NCBI RefSeq assembly: GCF_003258295.1
Contig: NZ_QKYN01000110.1
Coordinates: 1-64,000 of the forward strand
Direction: 5' to 3'
DNA: 64,000 nt
Source: Streptacidiphilus pinicola
GTDB lineage: Bacteria > Actinomycetota > Actinomycetes > Streptomycetales > Streptomycetaceae
In this document: positions 6,535 through 16,937 of the stretch, one piece after another
Layout of the letters: each line of letters begins with the position of its first letter
How positions within the stretch are numbered: position 1 is the stretch's first letter
Notes under the pieces: generated by a model
Database searches by the model: none
Told to the model about the DNA's origin: nothing
What the model saw: the letters and a program-made list of their open reading frames with translations, nothing else
Position numbers and translations under genes: made by a program

Positions 6535-7551
6535 GTGCCCAATCGTCAGCGACGCGTCACCTTGCGCGACATCGCGGAGGACACCGGTCTGTCCTCCGCC
6601 GCGGTCTCCTACGCCCTGCGCGGCCTGCACGTGCCACCGGAGACCCAGCAGCGGGTGCGCGAGGCGGCGGACCGCCTCGGCTACCGCGTCGACCCGATCG
6701 CCAGGGCGCTGGCCTCCGGCCGCACCGACACCGTCGGGGTGCTGTGCGAGTCGCTGGCCGACGTCTGGCAGCAGGGGCTGGCGGCCGCGCTGGGCCGCAG
6801 GCTGCTGGCCACCGGCCGGCACGCGCTGATCGTCGACTCCTCCAACGATCCGCGGCTCGAGGTCCAGCTGGCCGCGCACCTGGCGGCGCAGCGGGTGGAC
6901 GCGCTGATCGTGCTGCCCGTCGACCCGGCCGCAGCGCATTGGCGTCAGATCGCCCAGCAGACCGTGCTGATCTCCATCGGCGACAGCCTCCCCGGGGCGA
7001 CCACGGCAGCCGAGGTCGTCTTCGACAACGACCTCGGGGTGACCGACGCGCTCGGTCGGCTCGCCTCGGCCGGGCACCGCACGATCGCGGTCGTGACGCC
7101 CGGCCTGCCCGGGACCCCGGACCGGCCGGCCGAGGGGGTGGTCCGCCGGGTGGCGGGCACGCTGGGGTTGGCGGTGACCGTGCACACCTCGCCCTACGAC
7201 CTGGAGGGCGCGACCGAGGTGGCCCGCACGGTGCTCACCGGCCCGGACCGCCCGACCGCCTTCCTGTGCCTGGGCGACTCGATGGCCTACGGCGTCTACG
7301 CCGCCGCGCAGGACCTCGGCCTGACCGTGCCGGACGACGTGTCCGTGCTCGGCTACGACGACCAGCCCCTGTCGCGGTTGCTGACCCCCCCGCTGAGCAG
7401 CTACCGCTGGCCGGTGGACGAGCTGCTGGACCTCGTCGTCGAGCGCACCGTGAAGGCCGTCGAGGAGGGCAAGCGCAGCCGGCGCAAGGTGCTGGCGCCG
7501 GTGGTGCAGCTGCGCGGCTCGATCGCCGGGCCCCCCGACCCGGCGCCCTGA
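6535..7551 (+). CDS. LacI-family transcriptional regulator
   Basis: A 338-residue regulator: an N-terminal helix-turn-helix (VTLRDIAEDTGLSSAAVSYALRG), a hinge helix (VDPIARALASGRTDTVGVL) and a periplasmic-binding-like effector domain ending with the PDDVSVLGYDD block. Such proteins repress transport or catabolic genes until a small ligand binds. The GTG at 6535 gives the usual short lead before the HTH. It converges, six bases apart, with the ammonia-lyase/MFS operon, whose upstream region (10521-10558) carries three LacI-like operator sites, so that operon is its most likely target. Confidence 0.9.
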   Translation: MPNRQRRVTLRDIAEDTGLSSAAVSYALRGLHVPPETQQRVREAADRLGYRVDPIARALASGRTDTVGVLCESLADVWQQGLAAALGRRLLATGRHALIVDSSNDPRLEVQLAAHLAAQRVDALIVLPVDPAAAHWRQIAQQTVLISIGDSLPGATTAAEVVFDNDLGVTDALGRLASAGHRTIAVVTPGLPGTPDRPAEGVVRRVAGTLGLAVTVHTSPYDLEGATEVARTVLTGPDRPTAFLCLGDSMAYGVYAAAQDLGLTVPDDVSVLGYDDQPLSRLLTPPLSSYRWPVDELLDLVVERTVKAVEEGKRSRRKVLAPVVQLRGSIAGPPDPAP

Positions 7552-7557
7552 CCCGCG

Positions 7558-9072
7558 TCACCGAGGCTGGACGGGTACGCCGGGCGTGACGGGCGGAGTG
7601 GCGTCCGGCAGGCCCAGATCGACGGAGCGCAGCAGCGCCGCCGCCGAGTGGACGTCCTCGGTCAGCTTGTGGTCGGCGAGGTCGGGGTCGAGGACGGCCG
7701 CGGCCGCGTGGTGGAACTGGGACAGCTCGCCGTCGCCCGGCGCGGTGCGCTCCTGCATGCGCAGAGCCCGTACGGCCGCCACGAGTTCGCAGGCCAGAAT
7801 CAGGCGGAAGTGGTCCACCGCCTCCGTCAGACGGCGCGCGGCCGTGGCGGCGAAGCTGGCGTGTTCCTCGACTCCCCGGGAGATCACCGTATGACCGAGC
7901 GTCACCGGCTGCGCGGTGCCCCGCAGTTCGGCGAAGGCGCTGTGCGCGGCGTACTCGGTGATCATCAGGCCGCTGCTGCCGTTCTCCGCCTCCGCCAGGA
8001 ACGGAGGCAGGCCGGTGAAGGCCGGTTCGTTGAGCGCGCCCTGCCGGGCGGTGGTGAGTTGCGCGGTGCCCAGCAGACCCAGCCGCATCTGGTCCAACGC
8101 CAGGGCCAGGGACGCCTGGTGGAAACCCCCGTGGTGGTAGTAGTCGTCGCCGTCCAGGAGCGGGTTCTCCGCGCTGGCGTTGAGCTCCACCGTCAGCACG
8201 CGGTCGAGCGCGTTCCACGCGTCCAGCGCGGCGCCGTGCACCTGCGGCAGACAGCGGAACCCGAACGGGTCCTGGACCAGCGACGGGCTCCAGTCGGCGC
8301 AGGCCAACAGCCCCGACACGCGTCGGGAGACCTCCTGCGCGCCCGGGTGGGGCCGACGGGCGTGGACGGCCTCGGCAAACGGTTCCAAGGAGCCGCGGAC
8401 GGCGGTGAGCGACAGGGCCGCGACGAGCGGCAGCCGGTCCAGCAGCGTACGGAGATCGGTGGCGGCGAGCGCGGCCTGACCGATCGTCAGAGCGCTGCTG
8501 GACAGCAGCGGCAGCGCGTCCCAGGAGTTCAGCACGAGCGGGCGGGGCGGCTCGCCGAGGCCGACGCCGGGCTGCCAGGGCTGCTCGCCGGCGAGGGTCA
8601 GGCCGAGCTCGGCCAGCGCGGTCAGGTCGGCGGTGCCCAGCGAGCCGAGCGCGTGGACCTCGGGGACGTGGCCGCTGGTCAGCGCCTGGGCGAGCGCGTC
8701 GACGACGGCTCCGTCGATGGCGGACCCCGCACCCAGGAGCTGGTTGAGGCGCACCGCCAGCATGGCTCGGCTCTGCTCGACCGGGACGAGCGGACCGATG
8801 CCGCCGGCATGGCTGCGCAGCAGCCGCAGCCCGAACGCGCGGGTGGCCTCCTCGTCCAGTGCGGTGGTGCGGTTGGCGCCGACGCCGGTGGAGTGACCGT
8901 AGACGGGCCGCCGCGCGGTGGCCCGGACCGCCGCCGACCGGGCCGCGGTCACCCGCGCCCTGGCCTGCGGGTCCAGGTGGACCGGGAGCAGGGTGCGAGC
9001 CAGGGCGGTCACCTGATCCGCCGTCAGGGACGCGCCGTCGAAGCAGACGGCGTCGGGGTGCGGGGCGGTCAT
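7558..9072 (-). CDS. Aromatic amino acid/histidine ammonia-lyase family protein lacking the MIO triad
   Basis: A 504-residue member of the HAL/PAL/TAL superfamily. Conserved blocks are present: Y58 in VYGHSTGVGANR, QDPFGFRCLPQVHGAALD, ELNASAENPL, GLMITEYAAHSAFAE and SRGVEEHASF. The loop that should form the MIO cofactor from A-S-G or T-S-G (for example GSLGTSGDL in known PAL enzymes) reads GSLGTADL, residues 143-150, one residue short and without the Ser-Gly pair. Canonical MIO formation therefore looks impossible, so the protein may be inactive as a lyase or have another role. It overlaps the MFS gene as TGATG and is likely LacI-regulated. Confidence 0.85.
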   Translation of the reverse strand: MTAPHPDAVCFDGASLTADQVTALARTLLPVHLDPQARARVTAARSAAVRATARRPVYGHSTGVGANRTTALDEEATRAFGLRLLRSHAGGIGPLVPVEQSRAMLAVRLNQLLGAGSAIDGAVVDALAQALTSGHVPEVHALGSLGTADLTALAELGLTLAGEQPWQPGVGLGEPPRPLVLNSWDALPLLSSSALTIGQAALAATDLRTLLDRLPLVAALSLTAVRGSLEPFAEAVHARRPHPGAQEVSRRVSGLLACADWSPSLVQDPFGFRCLPQVHGAALDAWNALDRVLTVELNASAENPLLDGDDYYHHGGFHQASLALALDQMRLGLLGTAQLTTARQGALNEPAFTGLPPFLAEAENGSSGLMITEYAAHSAFAELRGTAQPVTLGHTVISRGVEEHASFAATAARRLTEAVDHFRLILACELVAAVRALRMQERTAPGDGELSQFHHAAAAVLDPDLADHKLTEDVHSAAALLRSVDLGLPDATPPVTPGVPVQPR

Positions 9073-10412
9073 CAGTGGTGGAGGCCTTCCGTGGTCACCA
9101 GGTTCTTGGTCTCGGGGGCCCAGGCGATGCTGACCACGGTGCCGAGCAGGAGCACCCCGGCGAGCCAGGCCATCGACCAGCCGGCCCCGAGCTGGTCCAG
9201 GCTGATCGGCAGGACGAAGGTGCCGACCGCCGACGCGACCCTGCTCGCGCCGTTGAGGAAGCCGACCCCGGCGCCGCGCAGCGCCGTCGGGAAGAGCTCG
9301 GGCGGGTAGACCTGCGTGATGTTGGACGCGGCCGACATCACGAACGTGTAGAGGACGAACGGCACCATCAGCACGAGGCCGGAGGCGTTGCTCAGTCCGG
9401 CCATCGCCGCCAGGCACACCGTCAGGATCGCGAAGGTCCAGATCGTGAAGGGCCGGCGCCCCATGCGCTGCACCGGCCACAGCCCGACCACGCCGCCGAG
9501 CAGCAGGAACAGGTTGAGGACCGTGTTCTGCGTGTTCGCGTCCGAGACGTGCAGCGAGGCGAGGATCGTCGACATGAAGGTGTAGATCGCGAAGTACGGC
9601 AGGACCTGGGCGCTGTAGAAGATCGCGCCGAACCAGGTGTTGCGCCGTTGACCGCGGGCGAACAGCGCGGAGTAGCTCGGCGTGACCTGCGCCGCGGCGG
9701 GCTGCTCCGGCGTGCGGCCGGGGTCCGGTTGCTCGCCGAGGTAGCGGCGCCGGATCTCGTCCGCCTCGCCGCTCCGGCCCCGGCTCGCCAGCCAGCTCGG
9801 CGACTCGGGGGTGCCGATCCGCAGCACCAGGACGAGCGCCGCCGGGAGCGCGCCGCTGGCCAGCAGCAGGTGGGCGGAGGAGTCGGAGAGGGAGATGTAG
9901 GTGCCGAGGATGTTGGCCAGCACGTAGCCCACGGTCCACAGGACGGTGAGGGAGCCCAGCAGCAGGCCGCGCAGGCGGCGGGGGGAGAACTCGGCGAGGA
10001 GAGTGGGGCCCACGGCGTAGTCGGCTCCGAGTCCGAATCCGATCAGCAGGCGCAGCAGGAACAGGCTCCAGGGGCCGTGTGCCCACAGCTGGGCGGCGGA
10101 GGCGAGCGTGATCAGGACGAAGTTGTAGAGGTAGAGCTTCTGGCGGCCGATGGCGTCGGCGACCCGGCCGAGGATCACGCTGCCGAAGAAGAGCCCGATC
10201 AGGGCGGAGGAGCCGAGCAGGCCCTGCCAGACGCCGTTCAGGTGCATCGAGGTGGACAGCACGGGCAGGACGGCCCCGATCACCCCCAGCGCGTATCCGT
10301 CGGAGAAGTTCGCGCCGAAGGTCGTGGCGGTCACCCGCAGGTGGAACCGGGTGAGAGGTTCCTTGGGTCTGCCGGCGGTCGCGGCCCTGTGGACTGCTGC
10401 TTCGGTCGTCAT
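9072..10412 (-). CDS. MFS transporter (sugar porter/aromatic acid symporter-like)
   Basis: A 446-residue major facilitator with 12 predicted helices. It starts with a cytoplasmic lead, then TTFGANFSDGYALGVIGAVLP, and carries the signature between helices 2 and 3, GRVADAIGRQKLYLY, and later the repeat QRMGRRPFTIW. A long central loop is present (residues about 210-250). The arrangement resembles the metabolite:H+ symporter group. The substrate is unknown but probably the ligand or product of the overlapping ammonia-lyase homologue. Start is the ATG at 10412; the LacI-type operator array lies 109-146 bp upstream. Confidence 0.87.
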   Translation of the reverse strand: MTTEAAVHRAATAGRPKEPLTRFHLRVTATTFGANFSDGYALGVIGAVLPVLSTSMHLNGVWQGLLGSSALIGLFFGSVILGRVADAIGRQKLYLYNFVLITLASAAQLWAHGPWSLFLLRLLIGFGLGADYAVGPTLLAEFSPRRLRGLLLGSLTVLWTVGYVLANILGTYISLSDSSAHLLLASGALPAALVLVLRIGTPESPSWLASRGRSGEADEIRRRYLGEQPDPGRTPEQPAAAQVTPSYSALFARGQRRNTWFGAIFYSAQVLPYFAIYTFMSTILASLHVSDANTQNTVLNLFLLLGGVVGLWPVQRMGRRPFTIWTFAILTVCLAAMAGLSNASGLVLMVPFVLYTFVMSAASNITQVYPPELFPTALRGAGVGFLNGASRVASAVGTFVLPISLDQLGAGWSMAWLAGVLLLGTVVSIAWAPETKNLVTTEGLHH

Positions 10413-10520: not shown

Positions 10521-10558
10521 TGATGCGCTTCACTGATGCGCTTCAGTGAAGCGGTTAA
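10521..10558. promoter_or_regulatory. Array of three LacI-type operator-like sites
   Basis: Two exact copies of tgatgcgcttca occur at 10521-10532 and 10535-10546, and a third related 12-mer tgaagcggttaa follows at 10547-10558. Each resembles the LacI-family consensus TGAARCGCTTCA. The same stretch also contains a perfect 11-bp inverted repeat, cgcttcactga (10526-10536) and tcagtgaagcg (10543-10553). The array sits between the minus-strand MFS/lyase operon and the plus-strand marC gene, so it could control either or both. Confidence 0.7.
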
Positions 10559-11279: not shown

Positions 11280-11305
11280 ACGGCGCGTGCGCCGTCGCCG
11301 CGCTG

Positions 11306-11953
11306 TCACCGCGGCGGCAGCGCGAGGCGGAGCAGCAGGCGCACCTGGTCGACCAGGTGCGCCGGGTCGAAGGTCTCGGGATCGGTGAGCGCCAGCCGGC
11401 CGAAGTGTTCCGCGCAGGCGACGAGCGCGTGGGCGAGGACCTGCGGGTCGAGGCCGGTGACGCCGCGGCCGGCCAGGGCGACGGAGATCCACTCGGCGAC
11501 GTGGTCGCGGAACCGGGCCCGGTCCGCCTCGATCCGCTCCAGGACGATCGGCGGCATGGCGCCGGGGGGCAGCAGGATCAGCCGCCAGGTGTCCGGGTCG
11601 GCGCGGAGCATGGCCGACATCCGGCGTACCGTCGCGGCGGCGAACTCGGCAGGATCGCGCAGCTCGGCCCCGTCTGCGAGCGTCTCCATCAACTGGCCGT
11701 AAGCGCGCGCCTGTTGGCGGTCCAGTAGGGCGCCGAGCAGGGCGCCGAGGTTCTCGAAGGCGCCGTAGACGACCGACCGGGCGACGTCGGCCCGCTTCGC
11801 GACGGCGTCGATGGAGACCCGGTCGAAGCCGTCGTCCACGATCACGGCCAGGGCCGCGTCCAGGAGCTGCTCGCGTCGTTCCTCGATCGGGACGCGCGGG
11901 GCGTAGGGACGCCGCTGGCGCGGCCGGGCGTTCGATGAGGAAGTCGCGGACAC
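11306..11953 (-). CDS. TetR-family transcriptional regulator
   Basis: A 215-residue TetR regulator with an arginine/proline-rich lead and an N-terminal helix-turn-helix at about residues 25-70 (ERREQLLDAALAVI, then VSIDAVAKRADVARSVVYGA), and a helical ligand-binding C-terminus. The start is a GTG at 11953. The gene diverges from the MpaB-like oxygenase gene, and two palindromic sites lie in the intergenic space, which indicates that it represses its own gene and the neighbour. Confidence 0.9.
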   Translation of the reverse strand: MSATSSSNARPRQRRPYAPRVPIEERREQLLDAALAVIVDDGFDRVSIDAVAKRADVARSVVYGAFENLGALLGALLDRQQARAYGQLMETLADGAELRDPAEFAAATVRRMSAMLRADPDTWRLILLPPGAMPPIVLERIEADRARFRDHVAEWISVALAGRGVTGLDPQVLAHALVACAEHFGRLALTDPETFDPAHLVDQVRLLLRLALPPR

Positions 11954-11962
11954 CTTGGCAGT

Positions 11963-12002
11963 TTACGACAGACGTGTCTTAATTTACGACAGCAGTGTCG
12001 TA
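11963..12002. promoter_or_regulatory. Tandem TetR-type operators
   Basis: Two imperfect palindromes are arranged as direct repeats with a 21-bp period (two helical turns): ttacgacagacgtgtctta (11963-11981) and tttacgacagcagtgtcgta (11983-12002). They are the only AT-richer stretch between the divergent TetR and MpaB-like genes and lie close to both starts, as expected for an autoregulated repressor. Confidence 0.75.
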
Positions 12003-12029
12003 TTCATGGGTGGCACGAGGAGCGGCAGC

Positions 12030-13091
12030 ATGGCCAGATCGCAGCGCGGCGAGATCCAACCGCACGAGGACTACGGCTTCTTCGGTCCCGGCTCGGTGGT
12101 GTGGAAGGTCTGGAGCTACCCGACCTCGCTGACGGTGGGCTTCCAGCGCGCCGTGGTCGTCGAGGAGCTCGACCCGCCGCTGGTGGCCGCCGTCCACGGG
12201 ACCCAGGGCATCTACGAGCGGCCCCGCACCCGCTACGACCGGACCCTGCGCTACTTCGCGATGGTGGCCTTCGCCGGCACGCGGGAGGTGTGCAAGGCGG
12301 CGGACGTGCTGGTCAAGGTCCACTCCAAGGCGATCGGCCGGCTCCCCTACAGCGAGGGGACCTACGACGCCAACGACCCCGACTCGCAGCTGTGGATCCA
12401 GCTGACCGGCTGGCACTCGATCCTCTACGCCTACGAGCGCTACGGCCCGGGCAGGCTCACCGCCGCGGAGGAGGCGGAGTACTGGGAGGCCTGCGCGACC
12501 GCCGCCGAGCTGCAGACCTGTTCCCCCGCCGACGTCCCGCGCAGCCGCGAGGGCGTGCGGGCCTACTTCGAGCGGATGCGCCCGCAGCTGTCCGCCAGCC
12601 CCATCGCCCGTCAGGCGATGGAGCACCTGTTGCGGACCGAACTCGTGCTGCCGCCGACACCGCTGTGGGCGAAGCCGGCCAGCCTGGCCGTCGCCAAGGC
12701 ACAGCGGATCGCCACGATCGCCACGATGCCGCGCTGGATGCGCGAGCTGGCCGGGATCCGGCAGTCCCGCCTGCTCGACGCGCTCATCGTGCCCGTCATG
12801 CGCGTCTCCTTCGCGGCCGTGCACCTCAGCCCCCGGCTGGAACTGCTGTTGCTGGGCCGGATCTCGCCCTCGACCGTTCCGGTCGTCGCCCCGATGAAGC
12901 TCGGCATGACGCCGCGTCACGAGGAGGTGCTGACGCCCGCCGAGGCGCGCGCCCGCCACGGCTACCCCAGGCCCGCCGAGGCCCACCTCGACCTCCGCGC
13001 CCGCCAGGCCGCCCGCGTCCTGGGTGAGGGAGAAGCCCCCAGCGACCTGGGGCTCATCGAGTCCCAGGAGTCGCTCGGACCGCTCTCCTGA
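12030..13091 (+). CDS. Oxygenase MpaB family protein (DUF2236)
   Basis: A 353-residue protein of the MpaB/latex-clearing-protein superfamily (PF09995), whose studied members are haem b oxygenases. Family landmarks include GFFGPGSVVWKVWSYP, the RYDRTLRYFAMVAFAGT block, KVHSKAIGRLPY with the conserved histidine, and LWIQLTGWHSILYAYERYG. I choose the ATG at 12030 because a gaggag ribosome site lies nine bases upstream; an ATG at 12006 touches the operator and has none. Its expression is probably controlled by the divergent TetR protein. Confidence 0.85.
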   Translation: MARSQRGEIQPHEDYGFFGPGSVVWKVWSYPTSLTVGFQRAVVVEELDPPLVAAVHGTQGIYERPRTRYDRTLRYFAMVAFAGTREVCKAADVLVKVHSKAIGRLPYSEGTYDANDPDSQLWIQLTGWHSILYAYERYGPGRLTAAEEAEYWEACATAAELQTCSPADVPRSREGVRAYFERMRPQLSASPIARQAMEHLLRTELVLPPTPLWAKPASLAVAKAQRIATIATMPRWMRELAGIRQSRLLDALIVPVMRVSFAAVHLSPRLELLLLGRISPSTVPVVAPMKLGMTPRHEEVLTPAEARARHGYPRPAEAHLDLRARQAARVLGEGEAPSDLGLIESQESLGPLS

Positions 13092-14246: not shown

Positions 14247-15647
14247 ATGGCCACTCAACCTGCGTACGGGGACTTCCCGCCGCCCTCGCGGTGGCTCCAG
14301 CTGTGGCGGCGTGTGCGCGAGTTCGCCGTGCCGCCTTCGATGATCGAGACGGCCGGCGCCCGGCGTGCGGCCGGCGACTGGGGCGGCGCGTGTGCCGCGG
14401 CCCGTGTCGACGTCGACCTCAACCTCCGGACGGTGGCATCGCGTCATGGGAGCGACGTCGCGGCGCAGATCCGTGACGACCTGCGACATCTCGCGCCCGA
14501 CCTGCTGCGGTGGCACATGCCGCGCATCGTTCCCGACGGCCTGCTCCGGCCCGGCCTGACGGTCGGTCTGGCGTGCTACGCGCGGCCCGACGCCGGGCCG
14601 CCGCTCCATCTGGTGGCCCGGACCTCACCCGGCTGGGCGGACGCGGGGCAGCGGTTCAGTCTGGCGATCTGGGACCCGACGCGTCCCTTGGCGGACGTCG
14701 GGCTGCATCCGCACCCGAGACCCGGCCGCCGGTTCCGCCTTGATCTGCATCGGCACCTGTGGGACGTCCGGCGGACCGATGAGCTGCGGGCTCGCAGCGG
14801 AGCGGAGCTTGCCGACCCGGAAGGCCCCGAGCGGTGGGCTGCGGAGGCGGCGATCCTGCTGCGGGCCGAGGCGGGTTCGTCGTGGAACGGCGCGCCTTTC
14901 GGGCCGCAGGACGGACCGCGCGACGCCCGTGGTCGCGTCGGTGTGCGGATCGGATCGCGCCGCCTGCTCGTCCTGGACACGGCCACCGGTTCGGGGACGC
15001 CGCCGGTCCTGTCCGCGTCGGCGCGTTCGCGGGAGGCCGGGCTTCCGTTGCTCCCGGACGCGTCGATCTGGACGCCACCCGATCTGGCGCTGCTGCGCGC
15101 CGGACTGGTCGACGCCGACGCGCTGCACCCGTTCGTGGCCTCGGCCCTGGCGCCGGGTCACAAGTCCGCGGGTCCCCGGGCCGGCGCCGAGAAGGCACCG
15201 GGGCAGCAGATCGTCGAGTGCCGTGGCTCCCGGCACCGGATCGCCGTGGTCGACGGCGTGCTGTCGCCGCTCGACCACGACCCCGACGAACTGCGTCGTG
15301 AGGAACTGCTGATCGCGCTCGGCGGCCCGCCCTTGCCCTGCCTGCGGACCATCGACCTCGTGCACCGCGGCCCGGACTGCCTCGACGACGTGCGCGGGCG
15401 CCTTGACCACGGCGACCTCGCAGGCGCGATCGACGTTGTGGAGGCTCTGCTCGGACCCGACGCGGTGCTGCGTGACGGCGCGCTGCGCGACGAACTCGCC
15501 GAAGCCGCTCTGCGCCGGATCGACCACGGGCTCTATCGGGCGGGCTTGATCGCCTCCCGGACCAAGAACGCGCCACGGCCACCGCGTCGCGACGTCCCCG
15601 CGCGCCGCTTCCTGCGTTCCCGGCCGCGCTACGGCATCGCCCGCTGA
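14247..15647 (+). CDS. Conserved-looking protein of unknown function, first gene of the MoxR/VWA operon
   Basis: A 466-residue soluble protein with no signal peptide or membrane segment. It opens YGDFPPPSRWLQLWRRVREF, has an arginine/histidine-rich middle (HRHLWDVRRTDELRARSGAE), an ILLRAEAGSSWN segment, and a basic C-terminus ending RRFLRSRPRYGIAR. I do not recognise a domain. The ATG at 14247 is used; a GTG two codons earlier is possible. It is 51 bp upstream of the MoxR ATPase. By position it could be the third, substrate- or effector-type partner of a MoxR/VWA chaperone pair; that is inference. Confidence 0.75.
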   Translation: MATQPAYGDFPPPSRWLQLWRRVREFAVPPSMIETAGARRAAGDWGGACAAARVDVDLNLRTVASRHGSDVAAQIRDDLRHLAPDLLRWHMPRIVPDGLLRPGLTVGLACYARPDAGPPLHLVARTSPGWADAGQRFSLAIWDPTRPLADVGLHPHPRPGRRFRLDLHRHLWDVRRTDELRARSGAELADPEGPERWAAEAAILLRAEAGSSWNGAPFGPQDGPRDARGRVGVRIGSRRLLVLDTATGSGTPPVLSASARSREAGLPLLPDASIWTPPDLALLRAGLVDADALHPFVASALAPGHKSAGPRAGAEKAPGQQIVECRGSRHRIAVVDGVLSPLDHDPDELRREELLIALGGPPLPCLRTIDLVHRGPDCLDDVRGRLDHGDLAGAIDVVEALLGPDAVLRDGALRDELAEAALRRIDHGLYRAGLIASRTKNAPRPPRRDVPARRFLRSRPRYGIAR

Positions 15648-15698
15648 CGAACCGCCGCGTCCGCGCATACCCCTTTCGACCAATCCAAAGGTGATCAC

Positions 15699-16937
15699 AT
15701 GGTCATGTCCGCCCCTGTCCCTTCCCCACTCGACGTAGCCGCCCAGCTGCTGACCCTGCTCACGGACAGCACCACGGAGCCCCGCCCCGACCAGCAACTT
15801 GAGGCGCTGACGCTCGCTGTCGCCGCGGACCTGCCCGTGCTGCTGTGGGGTGAGCCCGGCATCGGCAAGACCGCCGCGCTCACGCAGCTCGCCCAGGCGC
15901 TGGAACTGCCGTTGACCACCGTCATCGCCAGCGTCCATGAGCCGTCCGACTTCTCGGGGCTGCCTGTCGTCGGCGACGATCCCGCGCGGCAGGGCGTGCC
16001 CCTGGCCCCGCCCGACTGGGCGGTCCGCCTGGTGCGGGCCGGAAAGGGCCTGCTGTTCCTCGACGAGCTCTCCACGGCACCACCCGCGGTCCAGGCCGCG
16101 CTGCTCCGGCTGGTTCTGGAGCGGCGCATCGGTTCCCTGCAACTGCCGCCCGGGGTGCGGATCGTGGCGGCCGCCAACCCGCGCGCCTCGGCCGCCGACG
16201 GTTGGGAACTCAGCCCGCCGCTGGCCAACCGCTTCGTCCACCTGCAGTGGACGCACGACCACGAGGTCGTGGTCCGCGGACTGGGCGGGACCTGGCCGCG
16301 CGCCACGCTCCCGCGGCTCGACCCGGACCGGTTGCCGCAGGCGGTGGCCCTCGCGCGACGGGCGGTGTGCGGTCTGCTCTCCGTGCGGCCTGGACTGGTG
16401 CACCGACTGCCCGAGAACGAGACCGGCCGGGGCGGTGCCTGGCCCTCCCCGCGCAGCTGGGAGATGACGCTGCGGCTGATCGCCTTCGCGACTGCGGCCG
16501 GTTCATCCAGGGATGTGCTCTCCCTCCTGGTCCGGGGCACGGTCGGGGACGGCCCCGGACTGGAGCTGCTGGTGAGCATGGATCGGATGGACCTCCCCGA
16601 CGCCGAGACGCTCCTCGCAGACCCCCACGCCGCTGTCCTGCCGGAACGAGGTGACCTGCGCCAGGCCGTGCTCGACGGCGTGGTCGCCGCGGTCCGTCGG
16701 CGTCCCGAGCCGGCGCGCTGGGACGCGGCGTGGACCCTGCTCGTCCGGGCCGTGGAAACCGGAGCGCCGGACCTGGTGGTCGTCCCGGCGACCACCCTCG
16801 CCTCCCTCCGGCGGGAGGGCTGGAACATTCCGCCGGCGATCGAGGCGCTGGCCGGCGCGGTCTCCCTCTCCCGCCGTGCGGACCGCGTGGCCGCCGCCGT
16901 GGCGAGCGGCGGGCCGAAGAGCGAGGCGGGCCGATGA
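15699..16937 (+). CDS. MoxR-type AAA+ ATPase
   Basis: A 412-residue AAA+ ATPase of the MoxR/AAA_5 type. Walker A is GEPGIGKT at residues 51-58 and Walker B is LLFLDE at 118-123, followed by the sensor-1 segment VRIVAAANPRAS and the FVHLQW strand. MoxR proteins act as chaperones that remodel partner complexes, often with a VWA protein encoded next door, as here. Ribosome site aaggtg precedes the ATG. The stop overlaps the next start as ATGA, so ATPase and VWA protein are translationally coupled. Confidence 0.88.
   Translation: MVMSAPVPSPLDVAAQLLTLLTDSTTEPRPDQQLEALTLAVAADLPVLLWGEPGIGKTAALTQLAQALELPLTTVIASVHEPSDFSGLPVVGDDPARQGVPLAPPDWAVRLVRAGKGLLFLDELSTAPPAVQAALLRLVLERRIGSLQLPPGVRIVAAANPRASAADGWELSPPLANRFVHLQWTHDHEVVVRGLGGTWPRATLPRLDPDRLPQAVALARRAVCGLLSVRPGLVHRLPENETGRGGAWPSPRSWEMTLRLIAFATAAGSSRDVLSLLVRGTVGDGPGLELLVSMDRMDLPDAETLLADPHAAVLPERGDLRQAVLDGVVAAVRRRPEPARWDAAWTLLVRAVETGAPDLVVVPATTLASLRREGWNIPPAIEALAGAVSLSRRADRVAAAVASGGPKSEAGR

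Follow-up and report, generated by a model that had tools for sequence, protein, structure and literature searches.

The window analysed here, the whole stretch of 64,000 nucleotides from Streptacidiphilus pinicola, carries a transporter-lyase gene pair, a convergent regulatory gene and a putative operator:

6535 to 7551, plus strand: LacI-family regulator, convergent with the transporter-lyase pair; 79%, 62% and 54% identical to the LacI proteins of the ABC-type loci L133, L095 and L063
7558 to 9072, minus strand: HAL/PAL-family lyase homologue without the MIO triad, 504 aa (open reading frame with PF00221 match; stop codon at 7558-7560)
8623 to 8646, minus strand: short loop GSLGTADL, residues 143-150 of the lyase, replacing GSLG(A/T/C)SGDL (by alignment)
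9072 to 10412, minus strand: MFS transporter (Sugar_tr/MFS_1), first gene of the pair, its stop codon overlapping the lyase start
10525 to 10554, no strand assigned: putative LacI operator, tandem palindromes with a 13-bp period upstream of the MFS gene (by motif recurrence)

The window lyase contains the PF00221 domain (364 bits; cut-off 27.3). It shares with HutH the fold, the imidazole-side His and Glu, the catalytic Tyr and the carboxylate-binding Arg, but it has neither the MIO triad nor N195 and stays below the cut-off of the NCBIfam equivalog TIGR01225 (271.7 bits versus 539.15). An earlier note on this DNA had described the loop as one codon shorter than in MIO enzymes and devoid of the Ser-Gly pair, and this was confirmed against the three other PF00221 proteins of the source genome (GSLGCSGDL, GSLGCSGDL and GSLGTSGDL); the position given there (8620-8650) is correct to a few bases. 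Because the Ala/Thr-Ser-Gly triad is absent, the formation of MIO by the known route is, judging from the sequence, impossible in this protein. The blocks Y58, QDPFGFRCLPQVHG, NASAENPL and GVEEHASF were found as listed in the earlier note, but its wider statement that all other blocks are kept does not extend to the columns of HAL N195 and HAL Y280, which are Ser191 and Phe270 (Tyr280 in all 11 MIO enzymes aligned). The predicted structure is a HAL fold with a mean pLDDT of 82, based on 18 sequences and with pLDDT below 50 at residues 62-68, 263-265, 395-399 and 489-504, and its best structural matches are all HAL, PAL, TAL, TAM or ergothionase (Z 37 to 27 in the best 39 rows). Structure comparison was tried as a discriminator between HAL and ergothionase and rejected, the two being effectively tied (best eleven rows Z 37.0 to 35.2, ergothionase ninth).

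The window lyase is under purifying selection (dN/dS of 0.18 and 0.21 against its nearest relatives, L035 and L036), and these two relatives carry the loops GSIGTADL and GSLGTADL in codons that differ from those of the window, which argues against both sequencing error and decay. For a misread or decaying normal HAL nothing speaks beyond the missing codon itself; this explanation is refuted by the dN/dS values and by the same loop in all 80 named loci, from many assemblies, so that its probability is negligible, and the claim that the gene is not a decaying pseudogene stands.

Rather than an isolated oddity, the window lyase is one member of a large actinobacterial family in which further active-site positions changed alongside the triad. 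A search of the family sample gave 142 matches below E 1e-60 in 133 of the 394 genomes (counted from the table), whereas canonical enzymes begin at about 1e-54 in the same search and these 142 score far better. The proposed search for other lineages with a GTADL-type loop found the short loop in 80/80 named loci (L035-L114; Streptomyces, Streptacidiphilus, Kutzneria, Sphaerisporangium, Prauserella, Umezawaea and one unclassified actinobacterium) and in 29/29 relatives L006-L034, two sets that are partly from the same genomes and were picked by similarity. It recurs in 19 of the 20 loci L115-L134 (L116 shows no loop in the frame read), in seven of the nine loci L146-L154 (L146 and L147 are fragments) and in all four more distant relatives L182-L185, one of which reads GSIGIGDL, that is GIGD and not GT(A/G)D. 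In the phylum sample, 8 of 296 genomes matched an Arthrobacter relative at 1e-60, the four new ones among them being those of L182-L185. In the canonical controls L135-L145 the (C/T)SG loop is complete throughout (11/11 loci).

Several members are irregular. The window-subgroup copies L146 (G353) and L147 (G070) are in pieces or without the N-terminal part, through a frameshift or an assembly fault, and L117, L119, L121, L123 and L127 carry long insertions rich in Gly, Ala or Pro after the loop and before the N195 region and therefore gave partial matches in the family-sample search. L134 encodes two PF00221 proteins (1167-2567 and 7575-8927) with the loops GSIGASDL and GAVGTGDL, together with LacI, RpiR and ABC genes. 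Near a GT(A/G)D-type lyase lies the very divergent PF00221 protein L195 (G509; in L184 at about 11304-12599), the loop of which, AVGAAGEI, is of full length with Ser replaced by Ala, hence no MIO either.

We compared active-site columns in an alignment of 47 rows (28 of the family, 11 MIO enzymes, five of ergothionase type, one from Klebsiella and two others); HAL residue numbers are used, of which Y280 and D145 are also named in PDB titles. The positions in the window are:

8899 to 8901, minus strand: Tyr58, equivalent of the catalytic HAL Tyr53, kept (Tyr in 26/28 family rows)
8809 to 8811, minus strand: His88, equivalent of HAL His83, kept (His in 26/28 family rows)
8500 to 8502, minus strand: Ser191 at the position of HAL Asn195 (Ser in 28/28 family rows, Asn in 11/11 MIO rows)
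8254 to 8256, minus strand: Arg273, equivalent of the carboxylate-binding HAL Arg283, kept (Arg in 28/28 family rows)
7954 to 7956, minus strand: Glu373 where most MIO enzymes have Gln (Glu in 28/28 family rows, Gln in 10/11 MIO rows)
7867 to 7869, minus strand: Glu402, equivalent of HAL Glu414, kept (Glu in 28/28 family rows)

The two family rows without a match at Tyr53 or His83 are N-terminally cut or misaligned (L123 and L124 for the His83 column). At the S143 column none of the 28 family rows has a residue; among the 11 MIO rows it is Ser in seven and hidden inside the X of four crystal sequences. Asn195 occurs in none of the 36 triad-less rows. The joint change of the loop and of Asn195, the MIO-partner residue, is what would be expected if Asn195 serves MIO chemistry. 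Gln at the Glu414 column was found in two aminomutases and L145. The aminomutases (tyrosine 2,3-aminomutase, 2OHY; phenylalanine aminomutase AdmH, 3UNV) share the fold and most blocks with the window lyase but have N195, show Gln in the Glu414 column and contain MIO, written as X in the PDB sequence, whereas the His83/Glu414 pair of the family is that of HAL and ergothionase.

The closest precedent is ergothionase, which is stated in a passage of a 2026 paper (PMC13405746, citing Maurer et al. 2019) to lack the MIO cofactor. The loop of the Treponema denticola enzyme (6S7J, 6S7Q), one residue short and without Ser-Gly, aligns gap-free to that of the window lyase (RSSIGEGDIT in 6S7J versus ALGSLGTADLT), and both proteins have the HAL fold, Ser at N195, a QDP motif and the Tyr53-, His83-, Arg283- and Glu414-type residues. 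The leaving group of ergothionase is trimethylamine, which departs more readily than ammonia. A MIO-free lyase thus has a precedent with the same short loop and the same Asn-to-Ser change, and the proposal in the earlier note of a lyase with another mechanism gains from it, the activity of the window lyase itself being deduced here. The same likeness would be expected if the window lyase were itself an ergothionase, converting ergothioneine to thiourocanate and trimethylamine. The two differ, however, in the loop (EGD versus T(A/G)D in the family), show about 25% identity in the structure comparison and form separate clades (support 100/100 for the window-lyase family, 100/99 for the ergothionases). 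Moreover, four of the five ergothionase rows have Lys after the Gln/Glu position, whereas the residue there is Tyr in 27 (Tyr374 in the window lyase) and Val in one of the 28 family rows, as in HAL; the Lys of ergothionase has a catalytic role. The branching between the two clades falls in an unresolved centre of the tree, which is unrooted and compatible with either loss or gain of MIO having come first. One shared MIO-less clade had appeared in a first tree (100/99, the split setting the MIO rows and Klebsiella apart from the rest), and was given up when, with more MIO enzymes, the clades met in that centre; therefore, we claim no shared loss. In the open-licence papers searched, neither the window-lyase family nor a hercynine lyase was reported, and no HAL relative other than ergothionase was described as having lost MIO; PMC3903478 contains the term 'MIO-less'.

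The regulatory region links the window to other members of the family. At up to three mismatches the doubled motif occurs at one place only in the 8.4-Mb genome (three overlapping matches; none for the reversed pattern). The single motif at one mismatch had seven matches across the window (chance mean 3.6; 9 of 100 shuffles reached seven) and is not significant, so it is the tandem arrangement, together with its recurrence, that supports the operator claim. L035 and L036 have the same tandem upstream of MFS; in L063, L095, L133 and L160 it separates LacI from a gene pair encoding an amidohydrolase and a cysteine-dioxygenase-family protein. The tandem is present in six of the seven loci with a detected LacI (in the exception, L134, LacI is cut off by the locus end) and in three of the 125 loci without one, although one of these three, L160, does have LacI. 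Because LacI and operator recur at L063, L095, L133 and L160, the MFS-type group of the window is tied to the ABC-type loci, which suggests a shared effector; L063 also carries hutU at 15318-16901 (identified by cluster). The transporter and dedicated LacI regulator named in the earlier note were thus borne out, with the transporter gene co-directional, the LacI gene adjoining and its likely operator at one genome site.

The amidohydrolase (PF04909 in L095) and the cysteine-dioxygenase-family gene stand under the tandem operator, divergent from LacI (L063, 1528-2918; L095, 5240-6704; L133, 10373-11997; L160, 10528-11903). No orthologue of that amidohydrolase was matched in the source genome, which shows little, and the dioxygenase has distant matches only there (41% and 33%). 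A dioxygenase gene of this family under the same operator at four loci would suit an ergothionase.

We then considered the neighbourhoods of 110 lyase loci, 96 of which extend 5 kb or more to either side, with genes called by codon composition and neighbours counted within 6 kb of the lyase; the counts are descriptive because the lyase loci themselves served to define the neighbour families and are in part not independent of one another. An OpuAC-type binding protein was found in 64/96 lyase loci and an MFS transporter in 8/96, with one or the other in 72/96 and neither in 24/96; both were absent from the ten canonical hutH controls (0/10 each). RpiR was found in 57/96 loci (controls 1/10) and hutU in 43/96 (controls 2/10). 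NCBIfam and Pfam place the binding protein, permeases and ProV-like ATPase in the glycine betaine/choline class, at scores below the equivalog cut-offs, and the ATPase matches are unspecific (a similar ATPase is present in 3/10 control loci). The MFS protein gave GlcP as its first match among solved structures (5.4e-19) and organic cation/carnitine transporter 2 at 5.3e-11, none of them close or informative. Kutzneria, Prauserella and Sphaerisporangium together have a transporter within 6 kb in 0/9 loci, the binding protein of Prauserella muralis lying at 6.4 kb.

Some relatives sit directly among hut genes. At all three Sphaerisporangium loci hutI, hutF, an amidohydrolase and hutU adjoin the lyase (hutU 0.4-1.5 kb off, one hutI just beyond 6 kb), and the Arthrobacter plasmid L159 has ATPase, permease, permease, binding protein, hutU and lyase on one strand. 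L185 (G433), from another actinobacterial class, reads RpiR, HutH, ABC genes, lyase, amidohydrolase, hutU, hutF and hutI on one strand; its HutH is canonical (612 bits, cut-off 539, intact ASG), its lyase loop is GSLGTGDL and its hutU scores 935 bits. HutH and a MIO-less lyase therefore coexist in one apparent operon, which would provide two entrances to urocanate. The hydratases neighbouring the lyases of L052, L043, L159, L185 and L184 were all urocanases (5/5 scanned, NCBIfam), below the thiourocanate-hydratase cut-off, whereas near the Burkholderia ergothionase relative L158 lies a thiourocanate hydratase (1044 bits, cut-off 930); this speaks against ergothioneine as the substrate. As a marker of the two families the partner hydratase is imperfect, since the Paracoccus ergothionase relative L156 adjoins a true hutU, the urocanase gene, and has a whole hut operon. 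At the locus of the window no hydratase was noted beside the lyase, and no hut gene and no betaine-family transporter were found, so the link to urocanate rests on the relatives.

The loss of the cofactor, the adjoining LacI and the apparent operon of L185 with a canonical HutH might also indicate a pseudoenzyme, either a sensor or a protein that partners HutH in a regulatory role. However, the family as a whole keeps the Tyr53-, Arg283- and Glu414-type residues, the window gene is under purifying selection, the pairing with a transporter fits catabolism, and the two canonical hutH genes of the source genome (G000:C230 44837-52095; G000:C277 6950-10160) lie on other contigs, each with hutU within about 0.2 to 4.3 kb. 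The sensor suggested in the earlier note gained no support, and the kept residues make such a role quite improbable rather than impossible.

The binding proteins of the ABC-type loci give an ambiguous picture of the ligand. The best solved match of the Streptomyces-locus protein is the ergothioneine-binding EgtUC (2.7e-23), of which E375 and R379 are kept, as would suit an ergothionase; however, EgtUC is barely ahead of other betaine-family proteins and was not the best match in two further binding-protein searches. The aromatic cage holding the trimethylammonium group, described for EgtUC in a passage of PMC9732360, is largely gone: the actinobacterial and Klebsiella proteins have Asp for Tyr341, Gln, Glu or Ala for Tyr443 and Arg for Thr275. 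With cage residues changed and other betaine-family proteins scoring nearly equally, the EgtUC match was dropped as proof of ergothioneine, and an ergothionase is, on the evidence of clades, Lys, hydratases and binding protein, an unlikely identity for the window lyase. Judged by sequence, Arg275 and Asp341 give the pocket more the look of a normal amino-acid site, which speaks against a simple betaine ligand. A transporter of the glycine-betaine/choline class can carry histidine itself.

From these data we consider some MIO-independent elimination by the window lyase quite likely, and the family member probably splits an amine off a methylated histidine without MIO. It would be a C-N lyase of the HAL fold that acts on a histidine-like substrate by the same anti elimination, with a leaving amine that would need no electrophilic activation, as for the trimethylammonium in ergothionase; the kept Tyr would abstract the beta proton, the Arg would bind the carboxylate, and the His and Glu would face the imidazole, in the roles they have in HAL. 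Hercynine (histidine betaine, N-alpha-trimethylhistidine) fits best as the main substrate because of the HAL-like imidazole site, the MIO-free state shared with ergothionase, the urocanase nearby and the betaine-class transporters, and, reasoning from sequence comparison, we give it a probability of about 0.5. The lyase would then release trimethylamine and urocanate, and the latter would enter the normal hut pathway, for which the source genome has two hutU genes elsewhere. Import of the substrate would be the task of the MFS protein. LacI would occupy the tandem palindromes (10525-10554) and release the gene pair when substrate or product is present. Hercynine is an intermediate of ergothioneine biosynthesis; egtD is present in the source genome and absent from three of four distant genomes. 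This absence counts against hercynine, as do the changed EgtUC cage, the 24/96 loci without either transporter, the presence of hutU in only 43/96 loci and also in 2/10 controls, and the cysteine-dioxygenase-family gene at several LacI loci, which hints at a sulfur compound.

The amino-acid-like pocket of the binding protein might instead be read as a sign that the family acts, without MIO, on another histidine derivative with another leaving group, or on histidine by means of a new electrophile. Glu373, which is specific to the family, would agree with this, and His83 is replaced by Arg in the related short-loop proteins L163 and L134p2, which shows that substrates differ among MIO-less lineages. 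However, all genomes searched for PF00221 (G000, G433, G477, G509 and G519) contain a second PF00221 protein, at least one with an intact triad in four of the five (the second of G519 is an unread fragment), and there is therefore little need for a second histidine lyase. We regard this alternative as rather doubtful. Should hercynine be the substrate, the family would add a recycling route for this compound in soil bacteria, plus a possible source of trimethylamine. MIO is the textbook essential electrophile of the HAL/PAL superfamily, and a large constrained family without it, with a coordinated change at N195 and its own transporters and regulators, makes the dispensability of the electrophile testable.

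A second MIO-less HAL homologue, apparently independent, was found in a plasmid-borne hut cluster of Klebsiella quasipneumoniae (L161; NZ_CP092408.1, 5001-6533). The gene lies between betaine-class ABC genes and hutD/hutC/hutF, near hutU, and 163 plasmid records contain it with at least 95% identity. The triad is missing from its loop, GSVGYLIATAH, Gly stands at the N195 position, and in the tree the protein joins the MIO enzymes at their base (98/99).

We tentatively propose that MIO-free hercynine trimethylamine-lyases may constitute a widespread unrecognised class that feeds the hut pathway by a second route and has its own importers and regulators, in a third of the Streptomycetaceae sampled, and that MIO may have been lost more than once, including in Klebsiella plasmid hut clusters and perhaps in HutH1 of Pseudomonas, such as that of P. 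fluorescens SBW25. If true, a MIO-less HutH1 would explain why this HutH paralogue of Pseudomonas is dispensable on histidine.

Automatic annotation names such genes 'aromatic amino acid ammonia-lyase' or hutH, as in the Klebsiella (the former name), Polaromonas and Sinorhizobium cases, and is probably wrong about their chemistry. One lyase subgroup (L122-L129) has the binding protein beside a 983-aa sensor-like protein and small roadblock-like and GTPase-like proteins, a gene set that resembles a conservon.
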